A stretch of 64,000 nucleotides of DNA, from IMG/VR virus record IMGVR_UViG_3300012931_000018, positions 1-64,000 of that record; one strand, 5' to 3'. Positions 1 to 23,928 of this stretch are shown here, in pieces (the first letter of the stretch is position 1; each line of letters begins with the position of its first letter). The translations under genes and the position numbers were made by a program. The notes under the pieces were generated by a model. It worked only from the letters and a program-made list of their open reading frames with translations. It did not search any database and was not told where the DNA came from. This DNA is from a virus.

Positions 1-128
1 AAAAAATCAAAGAAAAAATAGAAGATGATGATAAATTATATTTTAATCATATTGAACAACTTCAAAAAAAGCATAAAGATTTTATTTCAAAAGAATGTAT
101 AATTGAAAAGGTAAGTAATGCTGAATAA
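1..128 (+). CDS. C-terminal fragment of a hypothetical protein
   Basis: An open frame enters from the left edge in the third reading frame and stops at the TAA at 126-128, leaving 41 visible residues. They are rich in Lys, Glu and Asp and look helical, with no recognisable motif. The 76-bp intergenic repeat begins on this stop codon, just as its second copy begins on the stop of the gene ending at 17849. The product cannot be named from this fragment. Confidence 0.5.
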   Translation, partial: KIKEKIEDDDKLYFNHIEQLQKKHKDFISKECIIEKVSNAE

Positions 129-202
129 TACCCTTCTAAATCCCCATTTTAACGAACATAGATGTGTTTTTAAGCCTACTTAACCCCTAAATAGAGTAAA
201 AG
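127..202 (+). repeat. 76-bp intergenic repeat, copy 1 (possible promoter region)
   Basis: This 76-bp element matches 17849-17924 with two mismatches, T/C at 167 and T/C at 177. In both places it starts on the stop codon of one gene and ends just before the start of a new gene block. It has C-rich patches (TCCCC, AACCCC) unusual in this AT-rich genome and ends in CTAAATAGAGTAAAAG. No strong inverted repeat is visible. A block-initiating promoter or regulator-binding region is the best inference; an origin or recombination site is also possible. Confidence 0.75.
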
Positions 203-230
203 TTAATAACTAATTAAATGAGGTATAATT

Positions 231-452
231 ATGATAGTTGAATTTGAATTTAGAGATAGATGTATTGCTGCTAATTATTATCATTATTATCAAAAAGATG
301 ATGATGTTTGTGTTAAATTGTATGGTTGTGAAAAAGTATGGTTTGATAATGGGAGATTATGTATTCAAACACAATATAGTACATTTAATTATAATACTTC
401 TGACATAATTAGTAGTTCATTGAAAATAAAAAGAGATATAAATGTCAAATAA
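231..452 (+). CDS. hypothetical protein, 73 aa
   Basis: A small gene with a good ribosome binding site (GAGGT, 8 bases before the ATG). It is the first gene downstream of repeat copy 1, and its last 11 bases overlap the start of the DNA polymerase gene, so translation of the two is probably coupled. The protein is rich in Tyr and Asp with a run of aromatic and acidic residues near residues 14-25. No motif is recognised. It may be a small regulator or an accessory factor of the polymerase, but only position suggests this. Confidence 0.6.
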   Translation: MIVEFEFRDRCIAANYYHYYQKDDDVCVKLYGCEKVWFDNGRLCIQTQYSTFNYNTSDIISSSLKIKRDINVK

Positions 453-3400
453 AATAGTTGATTTTGTTCATTTGCATTGTCATAGTGAATTTAGTACACT
501 TGATGGATTGCCTAAAGTTGAAGATTATATAATTAAATCAGTTGAATTAGGTTTTCCGGCTTTAGCATTAACTGAACATGGTAATTTAAGATCAATGGTT
601 CAATTAATTCAAAAGTGTAATAGCAATTTTATGTATGGTGGTGTTAAATATGATTTTGAACCAATTAAACCTATAATTGGTTGTGAATTTTATTTGTCAC
701 CAAATGATTATAAAATAAAAGGTTTACCTGATAATATCAAAAATAAAATAAAAGAAAAATCAGAATCAACTAAACAATTAAAAGAGCTAACTAAAAAATA
801 TGAATTGAAATATGCTATTAAAAAAAGATGGCATATGTTGATGTTTGCAAAAAATACAATCGGATTAAATAATATTTTGACTATGAATTATTTATCTTGG
901 AAATATGGATTTTATTATAGACCCAGAATAGATATGAATTTAGTTAAAAAATATAGTGAAGGAATAATAGCAACAACTTCATGTATTGGTGGAATGATAC
1001 CGGATTTAATATTGAATGATAAAAAAGATGATGCTTATTTAAAAATGAAGGAAATGAAAAAAATATTCAAGGATGATTTTTATGTAGAAGTTCAACCACA
1101 TAATATAGATGAACAAAAAACGGTTAATAAAGTTATTGTTGACATGGCTAATGATTTGAAAGTAAAAGTAATTGCCACTAACGATTGTCATTATTTGAAT
1201 AAAGGTGATGATTCAGCACATAATATGTTATTGGATATAAATAGCAGAGCAAGTAAATCTACACCAACTGGTGATAGATGGCGTTTTGGAGATACGGAAT
1301 TCTATATGAAAAGTAAAGATGAAATGGCAGCTTCATTTTTATCTAATCATTCATTTTTTAGTAAAAAGGAAATAAATAATTTTTTAGAAAATACAGTTGA
1401 AATTTCAGATAAAGTAGATTTGAAAATTGTTTTATCTAAAAAGAAAGGGATTTTACCTAATGTCACTGTCCCTGATGGTTATGAAAATGAAAATAAGTAT
1501 TTAATTAAATTAGCTAAGGATGGATGGAAGTGGCGAAATATAAATTTAAGAGCAAAAGAATATGCTAACCATTTTAATCTTGAATACAGTGAAGCGAGAA
1601 AAATATATAAAGATAGAATGATATTGGAATTGAAAAGAATATTTAAGATGAAATACACTAAAGTGTTTTTAATAATTCAAGATATGATTAACTGGGCAAG
1701 AAGAAATGATATTTATGTTGGTGCTGGTCGTGGAAGTAGTGCTGCCAGTTTAATATGTTATTTAACAGGTATAACAAGCATTGACCCTTTAAGATATGAT
1801 TTGATGTTTGATAGATTTTTGCATGAAAAAAGAATAGATTATCCGGATGTTGATATGGATTTTCAAGATGATAGGCGAAAAGAAATATTTGGATATTTAT
1901 TTAAAAAATATGGTGCTAATTATACGGCTATGATAGGAACTATTGGAAGGATGAAAGGTAAGCAAGCAATACAGGATGTAAGCCGTGTATTAGGGATTCC
2001 TTCTTATGAAGTTAATGCTGTTACAAAGCATTTAATTATAAGAGGTGGTGGTGATGCAAGATCAAGTCAAACTGTAGAAGATAGTTTTAATGAATTTGAA
2101 GTAAGTAAACAGTTTAATAAAAAATATCCTGAAGTATTGCCATATGTAAAAAAATTAGAAGCCAAAGCCAGACAAGTAGGAATTCATGCAGCGGGAATAG
2201 TTTTATCACCTTTTGTACTATATAAAAATATTCCTATTGAATTTAGAAAATCACCTGGGTTTGAAAAACCTGTACCAGTTACAGCTATTGATGCCAGAGA
2301 TATAGAGAATTATGGATTAATAAAATTTGATTTACTTGGATTATCTGAATTGACTATATTCAAATATGCATTAGCAGAAATAAAGAAAAGATATGGAAAA
2401 GAAATAGATTTAGAGGCAATAAATCTTGAAGATAAAAATGTTTTAAATAATTTTACGAAAGGGAATTTTGCTGGAATATTTCAATTCGATTCCATAGGTA
2501 TGAAAAAGACTTGTGAAAAAATGAGATTTGATTCGTTCGATGACATTATAGTTTTAAATGCTCTTTACAGACCTGGATGCATAATGGAAGGAACTAAAAT
2601 AACAGTTGAAATGGATAATCATAATAGAAGAACATTTTATGAAATAGGTGAATTATATAATAAGTGGATTAATGCTCCATTATGCACAAAAAATGTTAAA
2701 AGAAATTTTAATATTGTTTCATATGATGAAAATAAAAATATCCATATCAATAATAAAATAGTTGATATTGTTAAGTCTGGAAAGAAAGAATGTTTTGAAA
2801 TTATTCTTCAATCTTATGGTGAAGGAAAAGGAATAATTAGGAATAAATGGATTGGTAAATCAGGGTTCAGTAAGAAACATAAAATATTGACATTGGATGC
2901 TGGGTGGAAAAATGTAAAAGATTTACAGTATGGTGATTATGTATTATATAGGTTCCAAAATACTGTTGCTAAAGGTAGAATAAATACAGCTAATAAAAAA
3001 AGAGATAATAAATTTGTAAGAAAAACACCATATAAATCCATTGCTTTATTTTATTATAAAAGTAAATGTGCAATTTGTGGATATGATAAAAAAAATATTT
3101 CTTTAGATTGTCATCATATGGATAATAATCAACAGAATAATGATTATAAAAATTTGATAATATTGTGCCCAAATTGCCATAGAGAGGTGCAAAACAATTT
3201 ATATGATTTTGATTTTTTAGAAAAGAAAAGAAAAGAATCAAGATTGCCTAATTCATATAAAAATAAATTTAGATGGAGCAAAGTTGTTGAAATAAAATCT
3301 TTAGGTGTTCATGAAACTTATGATATTGAAATGACTTCACCTTATAATAATTTTGTTGCTGGTGGATTAGTTGTTCACAATTCAATGCGTTCAGGTATGG

Positions 3401-5121
3401 CAAAGCATTATATTGATAGAAAAATGGGCAGAGAAAAAGTTACTAAACGATATCCATTATATGATGAGATAACTGAAAAGACGTATGGAATTGTAGTCTA
3501 TCAAGAACAGCTGATGCAAGTATTTATGAAAGTTGCTGGATATCAACCTTCGAAAGCGGATATTGTTAGAGTTAAAGTTGCAAAAAGTTCCGGTGTTGAA
3601 AGTATATGGCGTGAGAAAGAAGATTTTATGAATGGCGCTAAAAAAAATAATGTACCTGAAAAAATAGCAAATCAATTATTTAAGGATATGTCATTTTTTG
3701 GTAGTTATACTTTTAATAAAGCTCATGCTGCTGCATATTCTGTTAATAGTTATATTGGTATGTGGTTAAAAACTTATTATCCAACTGAATTTTTTTATGC
3801 AATGCTTAGGAAAGAAAATAAAAATGAAAGAATAAGGGAATTTATTATTGAAGCTAAATTAATTGGGATAAGTATAAAGATGCCTGATATAAATTTAAGT
3901 AATGAACAATTTTCTATTATATCTGAAAAAAATATTTCAGTTGGATTAACTGATGTAAAAGGTGTTGGATTAAAAGCAGCAAAAATAATTTCAGATAATA
4001 AACCTTATACAAGTTTATATAATTTTATAAATAAAGTTGATAGAAGGATTGTGAATAAAAGAGTGATTAACTCTTTGATTGTAGTTGGTGCATTTAAAAA
4101 TATTTATAGTCATACAGCAGCATTATTAAAAGAAGTTTCAATCCAACGGATTAAAAGAGATGGTAGTGAATTAAAAATTACTAAAAAAACATGGGAATGG
4201 ATGATTGAAGAAAAGACTGAATTTAATTCAGAATTATTTTATAAAACAGTTCGAAAAGAAACAATTCCATTTACTATTGATGAAGAACAAAGATTGATGG
4301 CAAAGGTTTCACCACTTCCACCGGATAAGCATGAAATTGAATATTATAAATATTTGGATAAGTATGTTGATAAGTGTTATAAAATTACAGACATAAATAA
4401 AATAAATTATGATGAAAAGAAATTTATTTTAAGAGGGATAATTGTTGATATTAAATATAATCAGATAGGTGATTTTTTCAAAGAACTTCCACCAGATGAA
4501 ACAAAAGAAAGAATTGGTTGGGGCAAAAGATATGTTTCTATAAATATAGATGATGGAACTGGAATAAAAAGAATGAAAGTTGATATTGATACATTTTCTA
4601 CTTTTAGATATATAATAGATAAAGGAATTGGAACACCAGTAATGGTAGCAGTTAGAAGTTTTTCGAAGTTCGAAGCATTGTTTGTTGATAATATGATAGA
4701 CTTGAATGAATTATCATCTATTATTGATTTAAAATCTATTACAATAAAAGAATCTTTTAAAAAGTTAAATAAGTTTCAAAGATATTTTATTCAGCACCCT
4801 ATAAAAAAATATAAAGAGTGTAGAACTAAAGTTGATAAAATAATCGATAAAAAGAATGGTATATTTGAAACCGTATGTTTGATATCAAAAGTAAAACATC
4901 ATTGGACTAATAAAGATGATAAAGAAATGATGTTTATAGATTTAGAAGATGAAACGGGGAATATGGATGTTGTTATATGGAATGATGTATTGATGAAAAA
5001 TAGAAAAAAGCTACAACAAGGTAATATTGTAAAAGTAAATTTGATTAAAAAAGGAAAAAGTATTTTTATCAAAGAAAAAAGTGAAATTATTTTATTAGAA
5101 CAACGATTAAAATATTTATAA
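442..5121 (+). CDS. dnaE: DNA polymerase III alpha subunit (DnaE type) with an in-frame intein
   Basis: This is the replicative C-family DNA polymerase, 1559 residues as translated and about 1291 after removal of a 268-residue intein. It opens with the PHP domain (HLHCHSE at residues 10-16, then LTEHGN). The polymerase core follows: the GRGSSAAS motif, then YPDVDMDF with the catalytic aspartates D469 and D471 (D473 follows in the motif). The ALYRPG motif is split by the intein and resumes with the S-M-R-S-G-M sequence. Later come a helix-hairpin-helix segment (GVGLKAA) and a C-terminal OB-fold near residues 1460-1550. The first ATG overlaps the upstream gene by 11 bases. The rest of the replisome is not in this window, so the phage probably encodes or borrows other parts elsewhere. 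Phage-encoded DnaE-type polymerases are less usual than PolA- or PolB-type ones. Confidence 0.96.
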   Translation: MSNKIVDFVHLHCHSEFSTLDGLPKVEDYIIKSVELGFPALALTEHGNLRSMVQLIQKCNSNFMYGGVKYDFEPIKPIIGCEFYLSPNDYKIKGLPDNIKNKIKEKSESTKQLKELTKKYELKYAIKKRWHMLMFAKNTIGLNNILTMNYLSWKYGFYYRPRIDMNLVKKYSEGIIATTSCIGGMIPDLILNDKKDDAYLKMKEMKKIFKDDFYVEVQPHNIDEQKTVNKVIVDMANDLKVKVIATNDCHYLNKGDDSAHNMLLDINSRASKSTPTGDRWRFGDTEFYMKSKDEMAASFLSNHSFFSKKEINNFLENTVEISDKVDLKIVLSKKKGILPNVTVPDGYENENKYLIKLAKDGWKWRNINLRAKEYANHFNLEYSEARKIYKDRMILELKRIFKMKYTKVFLIIQDMINWARRNDIYVGAGRGSSAASLICYLTGITSIDPLRYDLMFDRFLHEKRIDYPDVDMDFQDDRRKEIFGYLFKKYGANYTAMIGTIGRMKGKQAIQDVSRVLGIPSYEVNAVTKHLIIRGGGDARSSQTVEDSFNEFEVSKQFNKKYPEVLPYVKKLEAKARQVGIHAAGIVLSPFVLYKNIPIEFRKSPGFEKPVPVTAIDARDIENYGLIKFDLLGLSELTIFKYALAEIKKRYGKEIDLEAINLEDKNVLNNFTKGNFAGIFQFDSIGMKKTCEKMRFDSFDDIIVLNALYRPGCIMEGTKITVEMDNHNRRTFYEIGELYNKWINAPLCTKNVKRNFNIVSYDENKNIHINNKIVDIVKSGKKECFEIILQSYGEGKGIIRNKWIGKSGFSKKHKILTLDAGWKNVKDLQYGDYVLYRFQNTVAKGRINTANKKRDNKFVRKTPYKSIALFYYKSKCAICGYDKKNISLDCHHMDNNQQNNDYKNLIILCPNCHREVQNNLYDFDFLEKKRKESRLPNSYKNKFRWSKVVEIKSLGVHETYDIEMTSPYNNFVAGGLVVHNSMRSGMAKHYIDRKMGREKVTKRYPLYDEITEKTYGIVVYQEQLMQVFMKVAGYQPSKADIVRVKVAKSSGVESIWREKEDFMNGAKKNNVPEKIANQLFKDMSFFGSYTFNKAHAAAYSVNSYIGMWLKTYYPTEFFYAMLRKENKNERIREFIIEAKLIGISIKMPDINLSNEQFSIISEKNISVGLTDVKGVGLKAAKIISDNKPYTSLYNFINKVDRRIVNKRVINSLIVVGAFKNIYSHTAALLKEVSIQRIKRDGSELKITKKTWEWMIEEKTEFNSELFYKTVRKETIPFTIDEEQRLMAKVSPLPPDKHEIEYYKYLDKYVDKCYKITDINKINYDEKKFILRGIIVDIKYNQIGDFFKELPPDETKERIGWGKRYVSINIDDGTGIKRMKVDIDTFSTFRYIIDKGIGTPVMVAVRSFSKFEALFVDNMIDLNELSSIIDLKSITIKESFKKLNKFQRYFIQHPIKKYKECRTKVDKIIDKKNGIFETVCLISKVKHHWTNKDDKEMMFIDLEDETGNMDVVIWNDVLMKNRKKLQQGNIVKVNLIKKGKSIFIKEKSEIILLEQRLKYL
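2578..3381 (+). other. DnaE intein with an embedded HNH endonuclease
   Basis: This 268-residue in-frame insertion (residues 713-980) interrupts the polymerase motif ALYRPG / SMRSGM. It begins with Cys1 after Pro-Gly and ends in V-V-H-N, followed by Ser as the +1 extein residue: the standard nucleophile and terminal His-Asn for protein splicing. A block-B-like KKHKILTLDAGW and a final beta strand with NNFVAGGLVVHN are visible. In the middle sits an HNH-type nuclease core with zinc cysteines C876, C879, C909 and C912 and the His pair H891-H892. All splicing and homing residues look intact, so this is likely an active mobile intein. It is 804 nt, a multiple of three, and the polymerase frame resumes cleanly. 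Confidence 0.93.
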
Positions 5122-5122
5122 A

Positions 5123-5142
5123 TTTTGTATATTAATTAAAGG
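5123..5142 (+). promoter_or_regulatory. recurrent TTTGTATATTA motif, candidate promoter (copy 1)
   Basis: The 33-base gap after the polymerase gene contains TTTTGTATATTAATTAAAGG. The core TTTGTATATTA recurs in the gaps before the genes at 19765 and 23955. Each copy is preceded by TA and three bases, then TTTG. In all cases it lies 20-50 bases upstream of a start codon. It could supply a -10-like TATATTA or a Bacteroidota-like TAnnTTTG box with altered spacing. This is inferred from recurrence and position only. Confidence 0.35.
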
Positions 5143-5960: not shown

Positions 5961-6044
5961 GGATTCATAGATAAAAATGTAAAAAATGATTTATATTGTT
6001 TATATAACTTTGTAATTAAATTGATAATAAAAAATGGAGTAAAA

Positions 6045-7274
6045 ATGTCATCTAAAGAAAAAGATATTAATAAAAAGTATGCCGATGCAGCTAAACGTGC
6101 TTCAAGTGGTGATTTTGATGATGCAATAAAACTTGAACAAGGTGAAAATGTAATAAGGATTATTGACCTTGATTTTCAAGAACAATTTGTTGGATGGTTA
6201 ACCGATACAGAAGGAAAGAAAAGAAAAATTCAACTTGGTGTAGATAAAAAAGTAATATTTGAAAAATATCCAATGCTTGAAGATGCTGATGAATTAAAAA
6301 TAAAACATAATTATTATTTCAAAGCCGTTGAAGGGAAAATAATTAAAAAGAAACTCAAAGAAATTGATCCAAAAACTAAAAAGAATAAAATTAAAATTTC
6401 AGTTGAACTTTCTAATGAAGTAAAAGTATTTGAATGTGGATCTACAATATTCAAACAGATAGCGTCTTTACAGCAGGATGATGAATATGGTGACATTACA
6501 GCAATTAATCTTAAAATAAAAAGAAGCGGTGAAGGATTGCTTACTGAATATGAAGTTAATCCTATGCGTGTAACAACAGAATTACCGGATGATTTGGAAG
6601 ATAGTATTGATTTATCAAAATATGCTATTCCTACTCCAATTAAAATAGTTGCTGAAATTGTTGGGGCTGAATTAAATGAAGAAAAATCTTCCAATAAAAA
6701 ATCTTCTAAAAAGGATGAAGAAAAATCTTCCAATAAAAAATCTAAGAAGGATGATGATGAAGATGAAGAATTAGAAGATGATGAAGAATTAGAAGATGAT
6801 GACGATGAAGATGAAAAACCTTCTAAGAAATCTTCTAAAAAATCTTCTAAAAAGGATGACGATGATGACGATGAAGAATTAGAAGATGATGAAGAATTAG
6901 AAGATGATGAAGAATTAGAAGATGATGACGATGAAGATGAAGATGAAAAACCTTCTAAGAAATCTTCTAAAAAATCTTCCAATAAAAAATCTAAGAAGGA
7001 CGATGATGACGATGAAGAATTAGAAGATGATGAAGAATTAGAAGATGATGAAGAATTAGAAGATGATGACGATGAGGATGAAAAACCTTCTAAGAAATCT
7101 TCTAAAAAATCTTCTAAAAAGGATGACGATGATGACGATGATGAAGATGAAGAATTAGATGATGAAGATGAAGAATTAGATGATGAAGAATTAGATGATG
7201 ATGACGATGAAGATGAAAAACCTTCTAAGAAATCTTCTAAAAAATCTTCCAATAAAAAATCTAAAAAGAAATAA
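6045..7274 (+). CDS. single-stranded DNA-binding protein (gp32-like) with long repetitive acidic/basic tail
   Basis: The ATG at 6045 is preferred over one at 6021 because GGAG lies 6 bases upstream. The 409-residue protein has an N-terminal region of about 200 residues typical of phage single-strand binding proteins: a basic start, E-Q-G-E-N-V-I-R-I-I-D, then a beta-rich OB-like region. The remaining 200 or so residues alternate Asp/Glu runs with K-P-S-K-K-S-S-K-K blocks in four repeats of 44-45 residues. Gp32-like proteins normally end in one short acidic tail that binds partners, so this tail is far longer than usual and carries basic blocks. It should coat single-stranded DNA during replication and recombination with the adjacent UvsY-like and RecA proteins. 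Family assignment is good; the tail's role is unknown. Confidence 0.75.
   Translation: MSSKEKDINKKYADAAKRASSGDFDDAIKLEQGENVIRIIDLDFQEQFVGWLTDTEGKKRKIQLGVDKKVIFEKYPMLEDADELKIKHNYYFKAVEGKIIKKKLKEIDPKTKKNKIKISVELSNEVKVFECGSTIFKQIASLQQDDEYGDITAINLKIKRSGEGLLTEYEVNPMRVTTELPDDLEDSIDLSKYAIPTPIKIVAEIVGAELNEEKSSNKKSSKKDEEKSSNKKSKKDDDEDEELEDDEELEDDDDEDEKPSKKSSKKSSKKDDDDDDEELEDDEELEDDEELEDDDDEDEDEKPSKKSSKKSSNKKSKKDDDDDEELEDDEELEDDEELEDDDDEDEKPSKKSSKKSSKKDDDDDDDEDEELDDEDEELDDEELDDDDDEDEKPSKKSSKKSSNKKSKKK
6679..7274 (+). repeat. in-frame tandem repeats coding the SSB tail
   Basis: The 3' half of the SSB gene is built from long near-identical units. The sequence CCTTCTAAGAAATCTTC begins at 6819, 6951, 7086 and 7221, giving periods of 132, 135 and 135 bases, all multiples of three. 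Between these basic blocks lie GAA/GAT/GAC runs coding the E-E-L-E-D-D pattern. Length changes between copies keep the reading frame, as expected for slippage or unequal recombination under coding constraint. Confidence 0.9.
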
Positions 7275-7294: not shown

Positions 7295-7328
7295 AAACAG
7301 GTGGATATTTTTAATCCACCTGTTTTAT
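7295..7328 (+). terminator. rho-independent terminator after the SSB gene
   Basis: A perfect 12-bp stem (AAACAGGTGGAT at 7295-7306 with ATCCACCTGTTT at 7314-7325) with a 7-base loop, followed by a T run. It lies 20 bases after the SSB stop codon and separates it from recA, which therefore probably has its own promoter in the following 107 bases. Confidence 0.9.
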
Positions 7329-17526: not shown

Positions 17527-17849
17527 TGAAAACTGTATTAAAAAATCAGCCAACTAAAATTCAAAATGATATTTTAAAATTTATCGCTGATAGAACTAAT
17601 GGTGTGAATAATACTGATCGAGTTACAAATATTGAAATATTCAAATTCTTAAAAGAGAAACCGGAATATAAAAGTATTCAAATTGGAATGGTGAATTCTA
17701 AGTTGACTAAATTTGAAATAAAGAAAATTATTTTGAAAGTTAATACTATTAATGTGAGTAATGATTTATCAAAATATAAGAACATCCCTGGCACTATTCC
17801 ACAATATTCTTATATTTTAACATCCGAAGCATATGAAACTATTTCTTAA
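17526..17849 (+). CDS. hypothetical protein, 107 aa, winged-helix-like
   Basis: The N-terminal segment reads as three short helices (Q-N-D-I-L-K-F-I-A, then V-T-N-I-E-I-F-K-F-L-K, then V-N-S-K-L-T-K-F) followed by a strand pair. This resembles a small winged-helix DNA-binding domain of the MarR/replication-initiator style. It is the last gene before the second copy of the 76-bp repeat, which begins on this gene's stop codon. The DNA-binding suggestion comes from pattern only. Confidence 0.5.
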   Translation: MKTVLKNQPTKIQNDILKFIADRTNGVNNTDRVTNIEIFKFLKEKPEYKSIQIGMVNSKLTKFEIKKIILKVNTINVSNDLSKYKNIPGTIPQYSYILTSEAYETIS

Positions 17850-17924
17850 ATACCCTTCTAAATCCCCATTTTAACGAACATAGATGTGCTTTTAAGCCCA
17901 CTTAACCCCTAAATAGAGTAAAAG
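17849..17924 (+). repeat. 76-bp intergenic repeat, copy 2 (possible promoter region)
   Basis: Second copy of the element at 127-202, identical except for two C/T differences (17889 and 17899). It fills the gap between a stop codon and the ATG at 17934, only 9 bases after the repeat ends. No ribosome binding site is visible there. If the element contains the transcription start, the next mRNA would have an extremely short leader. Confidence 0.75.
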
Positions 17925-17933
17925 ACTATAAAC

Positions 17934-18323
17934 ATGAAAAATACAAAAAATAACCAATTATCAGATGAACAAATTTTAGAAATAATATCTAATGAAAAGA
18001 TTGCTGTGTATAATAATTTTCAGCTTCAAATGAAAGATAGTATATTTCAAGAAATGATATTGAAAATATGGGAAGCGTTATTTATTAGCACTAATCCAGC
18101 AGGTAAAAATAATACACTGAATTTTATCAAATCTTTTAATAGTACAGTATATGAAAATTTTGAAAAGAGTTTTGATGAAAATTATAAATTGTATTGTAGT
18201 AATAATGAATTTGCTATTAGTAAAAGTGATTATCGGGAAAATTTCTATGCAGCAATACAGAATAATGCAGATGATTTAATAAAATATTTTGATCTTGATA
18301 AAAAAATAATTATACCAACATAA
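17934..18323 (+). CDS. hypothetical protein, 129 aa
   Basis: First gene after repeat copy 2. Unlike nearly all its neighbours it has no purine-rich ribosome binding site; the bases before the ATG read GACTATAAAC. The protein is predicted mostly helical, with acidic and aromatic residues (Y-E-N-F-E-K-S-F-D-E-N-Y). No family is recognised. If transcription begins inside the repeat, translation may be nearly leaderless. Confidence 0.6.
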   Translation: MKNTKNNQLSDEQILEIISNEKIAVYNNFQLQMKDSIFQEMILKIWEALFISTNPAGKNNTLNFIKSFNSTVYENFEKSFDENYKLYCSNNEFAISKSDYRENFYAAIQNNADDLIKYFDLDKKIIIPT

Positions 18324-19725: not shown

Positions 19726-19743
19726 TTTGTATATTATAATAAG
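19726..19743 (+). promoter_or_regulatory. recurrent TTTGTATATTA motif, candidate promoter (copy 2)
   Basis: The gap holds TTTGTATATTATAATAAG, sharing the TTTGTATATTA core with 5123-5142 and 23908-23928. The TATAAT inside it is a consensus sigma-70 -10 hexamer, though no clear -35 is visible. It lies 22 bases before the ATG at 19765. Functional assignment is inference. Confidence 0.4.
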
Positions 19744-23907: not shown

Positions 23908-23928
23908 TTTTGTATATTATTATAAGAA
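23908..23928 (+). promoter_or_regulatory. recurrent TTTGTATATTA motif, candidate promoter (copy 3)
   Basis: TTTTGTATATTATTATAAGA fills the gap after the gene ending at 23900, matching the cores at 5123 and 19726. The next ATG is 26 bases downstream. Three independent intergenic occurrences of the same 11-mer favour a promoter-like role, but the AT-rich background weakens the case. Confidence 0.4.

Follow-up and report, generated by a model that had tools for sequence, protein, structure and literature searches.

What is a 76-nt intergenic sequence doing when it recurs, almost unchanged, ahead of separate gene blocks in one phage genome? It was noticed in the window (the whole 64,000-nt stretch of DNA that was analysed, positions 1 to 64,000 of IMG/VR record IMGVR_UViG_3300012931_000018), and we have followed it through the full record and its relatives. 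The record is 87,945 nt long and both of its ends carry the same 123 nt; this exact terminal repeat makes it a complete phage genome of circular type (circular or circularly permuted) of ~87.8 kb (about 87,822 nt), and the first copy of the 76-mer is placed just past the join of the record ends. The non-coding share of the genome is ~5%.

The earlier note had reported two copies (copies 1 and 2 in Table 1); its coordinates proved exact, as did its count of two differences, at positions 41 and 51 of the element (T in copy 1, C in copy 2). Chance is excluded by the BLAST E-value of the 76-nt pair within the genome, about 1e-29. The note had also held that a lack both of further copies and of a transcript start would refute its interpretation; the complete genome contains a third copy, on the same strand and likewise set between a stop and a start codon, with five differences from copy 2 and seven from copy 1 (91%). 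A three-copy profile, run at full sensitivity over the whole genome, retrieves exactly these three copies, all co-oriented with transcription, the rest being noise. Similarity varies in extent by pair and is pairwise longer, rather than being fixed at 76 nt. For copies 1 and 3, 127–233 aligns with 79584–79692 at 91% (107–109 nt), passing through TAATAACTAATTAAATGAGGTATA(TA)ATTATG, that is, from the Shine-Dalgarno GAGG to the start codon, and ending after the ATG. For copies 2 and 3, 17833–17924 aligns with 79568–79659 at 93% (92 nt), starting 16 nt farther upstream; copy 2 is without the ribosome-binding site common to the other two.

Table 1. Positions of the three copies, their extensions, the neighbouring genes and the second motif (window positions unless marked as record)
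Feature	Position	Strand	Basis or remark
TAA stop of 143-aa gene crossing the record ends	126..128	+	frame checked across join
Copy 1, 76-nt core	127..202	+	97% to copy 2, 91% to copy 3
Spacer, Shine-Dalgarno GAGG and ATG, common to copies 1 and 3	203..233	+	local alignment
First gene after copy 1, 73 aa, no family	231..452	+	ORF list and profile searches
DnaE-type DNA polymerase III alpha subunit, HNH-containing insert	442..5121	+	PHROG_405 E 7e-278, NCBIfam polc
Upstream extension, common to copies 2 and 3	17833..17848	+	local alignment
Copy 2, 76-nt core	17849..17924	+	2 differences from copy 1
First gene after copy 2, 129 aa, no family	17934..18323	+	ORF list and profile searches
Copy 3, 76-nt core	record 79584-79659	+	whole-record search
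Second-motif gap sites	5124-5134, 19726-19736, 23909-23919; record 71372, 71883, 83228		

The copies had been described as beginning on a stop codon. There is indeed a TAA at the left edge of copies 1 and 2, but neither copy starts strictly on that codon, which the element overlaps: the stop upstream of copy 2 lies at 17847–17849, the left edge of that copy encoding the last codons of a 107-aa gene, and the stop codon preceding copy 3 is at 79569–79571. Given these stop codons and the pairwise extents, the repeated unit is the whole control region, from the end of the upstream gene to the start of the downstream gene. None of the proteins encoded downstream of the three copies (73, 129 and 83–88 aa) looks related to the others, which means that copying was confined to the control region; the protein after copy 3 is the only one with a relative among the related phages (in G010). 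We rejected a mobile element with its own gene, the repetition being limited to the control region. The element is real, then, and somewhat more extensive than first stated; its sequence is new, but its kind is known.

As the earlier note had it, copies 1 and 2 end before the first gene of a block, the boundaries here being judged from gene content. Copy 1 heads a block at 0.2–17.8 kb with DnaE, RecA, SbcD/SbcC-like, RuvC-like and 5'-3' exonuclease genes; copy 2 heads a block of small genes of no assigned function from 17.9 kb onward; and copy 3 heads a block from record position 79.7 kb to the join that includes a sigma-like gene and thyX. Some observations on the genome stand apart from the element. 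The DnaE gene is split by an insert at about residues 740–1000, which is probably an intein, given its HNH endonuclease match and a weak match to intein C-terminal splicing. A 417-aa ORF at 6021–7274 has long alternating basic/acidic repeats at its end (window 6650–7270), and a 226-aa protein (record 79962–80642) consists largely of ~20 repeats of the type IWEYG/IWKGG/TWKDG. The DNA primase gene is followed by a 683-nt ORF-free gap (record 77932–78614) with no Rfam family above threshold; the related G001 has a 407-nt ORF-free gap near that place, without clear sequence similarity.

Beyond this genome, searches did not find the 76-mer in viral contigs (three patterns), bacterial and archaeal genomes (one pattern) or plasmids, and phage records gave only four short, weak matches, none of them significant. 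Nor was it found in about 35 related records, reached via terminase and major capsid protein, searched whole and all at protein-level distance; G001 matches over 24 nt (E 0.002), outside the core and within the extension that holds the ribosome-binding site. Since the copies are 2.6–9% apart and were found in none of these relatives, we take them to be recent duplicates, young relative to the family. The argument that conservation of the whole sequence implies function therefore does not carry: between recent duplicates, identity alone cannot prove constraint.

The main support for reading the 76-mer as an expression-start cassette comes from the relatives. We read the larger related records through for repeated intergenic sequences, and several carry gene-start repeats of their own, unrelated to the 76-mer. 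G015 has eight sites, the full ones composed of TTGACA, 17–18 nt, and TATACT or a close variant, with CCGATAT largely conserved in the spacer; in G022, TTGACA is combined with TGTGGTATACT at four sites, and a short form stands at two further sites. G016 (seven sites) and G031 (eight sites) have a conserved TTACCTTTA(A/G) block ahead of start codons, with more variable upstream blocks of CTTTACTT or ACTAGGAAACTCAG types; this element has the look of a family of promoters whose -7 box is of TAnnTTT type. G010 has two small repeat families, and before two of its small genes it carries duplicates of a TTGACA-TATATT promoter together with the leader behind it, which holds a boxA-like GGTTCTTTGAAAATCG and perhaps serves antitermination (L094 14432–14590 and 15261–15404). 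G011 has no repeated gene-start sequence by the same criterion. Repeated gene-start sequences are common in this phage group and, where readable, are predicted promoters.

It is mainly on this ground, and not on the identity of the copies, that we call the 76-mer the core of a duplicated, dispersed expression-start cassette heading three early/replication blocks, a reading that we give about an even chance of being correct. The cassette, at most about 125 nt, would carry a transcription start (promoter), or a 5' leader immediately after one, and copies 1 and 3 would also supply the ribosome-binding site up to the ATG. Recombination would have duplicated it to the heads of three blocks on the early/replication side of the circular genome, where transcription would start in or near the 76-mer and the copies would co-regulate their blocks. 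In its favor, all three copies are on the transcribed strand of a compact genome, with an exact fit from stop codon to next gene; the similarity of copies 1 and 3 stops at the start codon, before unrelated proteins; and the position at block borders argues for function. Against it stand the composition of the core, which has neither a sigma70 pair nor a TAnnTTT box and is less AT-rich than its surroundings; the youth of the copies and their absence from relatives, such that relaxed duplication could explain their identity; and the lack of the common ribosome-binding site in copy 2.

The suggestion of a phage-specific promoter, made in the earlier note, thus survives in part: the promoter-type repeats of the relatives favor a promoter-bearing cassette, but the 76-mer itself has no recognisable promoter, and a second motif described below is the better candidate. 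No sigma70 hexamer pair lies within the 76-mer, and the matches near copies 1 and 3 reach only 9–10 of 12, overlap the ribosome-binding site and are badly placed. No TAnnTTT or Bacteroidota TTTG-TAnnTTTG promoter was found in the 76-mer, these scans being for known consensuses, to which a promoter for another factor is invisible. We also tried and rejected several specific candidates. The same promoter as in G016 and G031 (CCCCTAAATAG versus ACCTTTAARTAG) was scored with a profile that placed copies 1 and 2 at rank 203 and copy 3 at rank 768 among 175,612; these ranks are not convincing, as each is the best of about 60 positions. As coding sequence, no ORF spans all copies on either strand, and although copies 2 and 3 have a minus-strand frame of 20 codons, its amino acids are not the same in the two and copy 1 has lost it. 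Of two possible operator dyads, TTAAG-N4-CTTAA is at shuffle level and ACAT-N2-ATGT is too short to weigh; each copy has one 5-bp inverted repeat, likewise at shuffle level, and no long dyad exceeds chance. No tRNA was found at the element.

Several known systems resemble the proposed cassette in part. T4-type phages reportedly have mobile regulatory cassettes (attributed to Arbiol et al., 2010, a work cited in PMC4177764). These are short regulatory stretches between genes that, like the 76-mer, occur in duplicate in one phage genome, and they may help module shuffling; they are said to combine a readable sigma70-type early promoter with a stem-loop terminator, whereas the 76-mer core has no sigma70-type promoter, stable fold or terminator hairpin. 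The Cluster K mycobacteriophages carry many copies of the 13-bp SAS, and ESAS with 17-bp imperfect inverted repeats, mostly co-oriented and immediately upstream of the start codons of unrelated phage genes (PMC3203893); the 76-mer is also repeated, co-oriented and placed before unrelated genes, but its unit is 76–125 nt, in three copies, with no inverted repeats beyond chance. A further precedent is the set of intergenic repeats of halovirus HF2 (class I of 58 bp and class II of 29 bp), all with promoter activity; one of them stands at the 5' end of an 18-kb transcript that includes PolB, and another at that of a late transcript of 35 kb (PMC8707807). Both systems have near-identical non-coding repeats of tens of bases that are co-oriented with the genes they head, including the start of a polymerase block. 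HF2, however, is an archaeal virus; in its repeats a TATA box can be read and starts have been mapped, and their position is conserved across the genus (PMC8707807), whereas the 76-mer has no visible promoter consensus and was not found in the relatives searched (about 35 records, all at protein-level distance).

The rival that survives best, although we consider it unlikely, is passive duplication, in which recombination or template switching copied a segment to new gaps, where it has no function or serves as a homology patch for module exchange. It agrees with the young age of the copies, and the element gave no sign of a promoter, an RNA structure, a dyad or an array of protein-binding sites. 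RecA, SbcCD and a 5'-3' exonuclease are among the proteins that the phage encodes. It sits less well with three of three copies being co-oriented and fitting exactly from stop to start, two of them with a ribosome-binding site, and spare segments of 76–125 nt would be expected to decay in a compact genome.

A regulatory RNA leader is rather doubtful in our judgement. Transcription would start upstream, and the transcribed, C-rich 76-mer would act on RNA, for example through antitermination, a translational regulator or a small RNA. The whole length is kept, not two hexamers; the downstream operons hold intrinsic-terminator-like hairpins (at 7295 and 15336 in the DnaE block, and at record 84.5 kb); and the boxA-like leader in G010 follows a promoter that is itself duplicated. 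The lambda nut and HK022 put elements are likewise near-identical, tens of bases long and at the head of early operons; these have a boxB hairpin or stem-loops, whereas the 76-mer folds no better than shuffled sequence on either strand (z-scores 0.82 and 0.07). Rfam gave no match in the window, and in the rest of the record none with E<=1 that reaches the gathering score; no compensatory support comes from the few positions at which the copies differ, and whatever resembles boxA in the 76-mer is short and rich in A and T.

A further reading, which we hold to be quite improbable, makes the 76-mer a regulatory site specific to the phage and of a kind not described before, either a non-sigma70 promoter or a C-rich RNA leader, the latter in control of entire early blocks; its reader, in the case of a promoter, could for example be a phage-altered host RNA polymerase or the sigma-like protein discussed below.

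The C-rich patches, which had been called unusual for this genome, are so: the C content of the coding strand is 10%, and CCCC occurs 13 times on the whole plus strand, five of these inside the three copies. This composition bears on the weakest rival, a Rho-dependent terminator at the block boundary, where C-rich, G-poor RNA would load Rho and end transcription of the upstream block: the copies rank in the top 0.08–0.6% of coding-strand 78-nt windows by C minus G, and their three boundaries have no intrinsic-terminator-like hairpin, whereas such hairpins are present elsewhere in the genome, but other windows are equally extreme, several within genes, the YC dimers are clustered and the spaced rut-like pattern matches no copy, and Rho sites need no sequence identity, which leaves the near-identity of the copies unexplained, so that we regard this explanation as very unlikely.

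Apart from the proposed cassette, a second motif, TTTTGTATATTA (with small variations; core GTATATTA), lies in six gaps of the genome, upstream of genes (Table 1). The core, an 8-mer, occurs 14 times in all, six of them in the 4.5% of the genome counted as non-coding (p 2e-5, an optimistic value, as the motif was first noticed in the same genome). It is also enriched in the gaps of G001 (4 of 7 occurrences), G011 (4/5) and G032 (7/15), and a GTATA[CT]T form in those of G016 (7/13); G011, G032 and G016 are near-independent tests, the G016 form being one of three tried. There was no enrichment in the gaps of G010 or G012. The motif stands directly after the DnaE gene in the present genome, G011 and G032, and upstream of an SNF2-type helicase gene in the present genome, G001 and G011, and in G016 as CGTATAC. 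This motif, rather than the 76-mer, is the better candidate promoter for the phage family.

A candidate reader is encoded 3 kb downstream of copy 3, where the product of a 194-aa ORF (record 82595–83179) resembles the sigma-70 family, although divergent from it (TIGR02937 at E 8e-5, which is below its cut-off, and PHROG_1740 at E 1e-3). The relatives yielded no orthologue of this protein, and its AlphaFold model (mean pLDDT 43) was set aside. This protein could read one of the two classes of site, the 76-mer or the GTATATTA motif.

Should the copies prove to be control regions, they would mark three transcription units with a coordinated start, in a phage whose uncultured family has a DnaE and, possibly, a sigma factor of its own. 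Each of several related lineages has its own repeated gene-start sequence, a pattern that the 76-mer fits, and such repeats may provide a usable guide to transcription units in phages without RNA data. A concrete phage-promoter prediction comes from the GTATATTA motif, which several relatives carry at the same gene borders.
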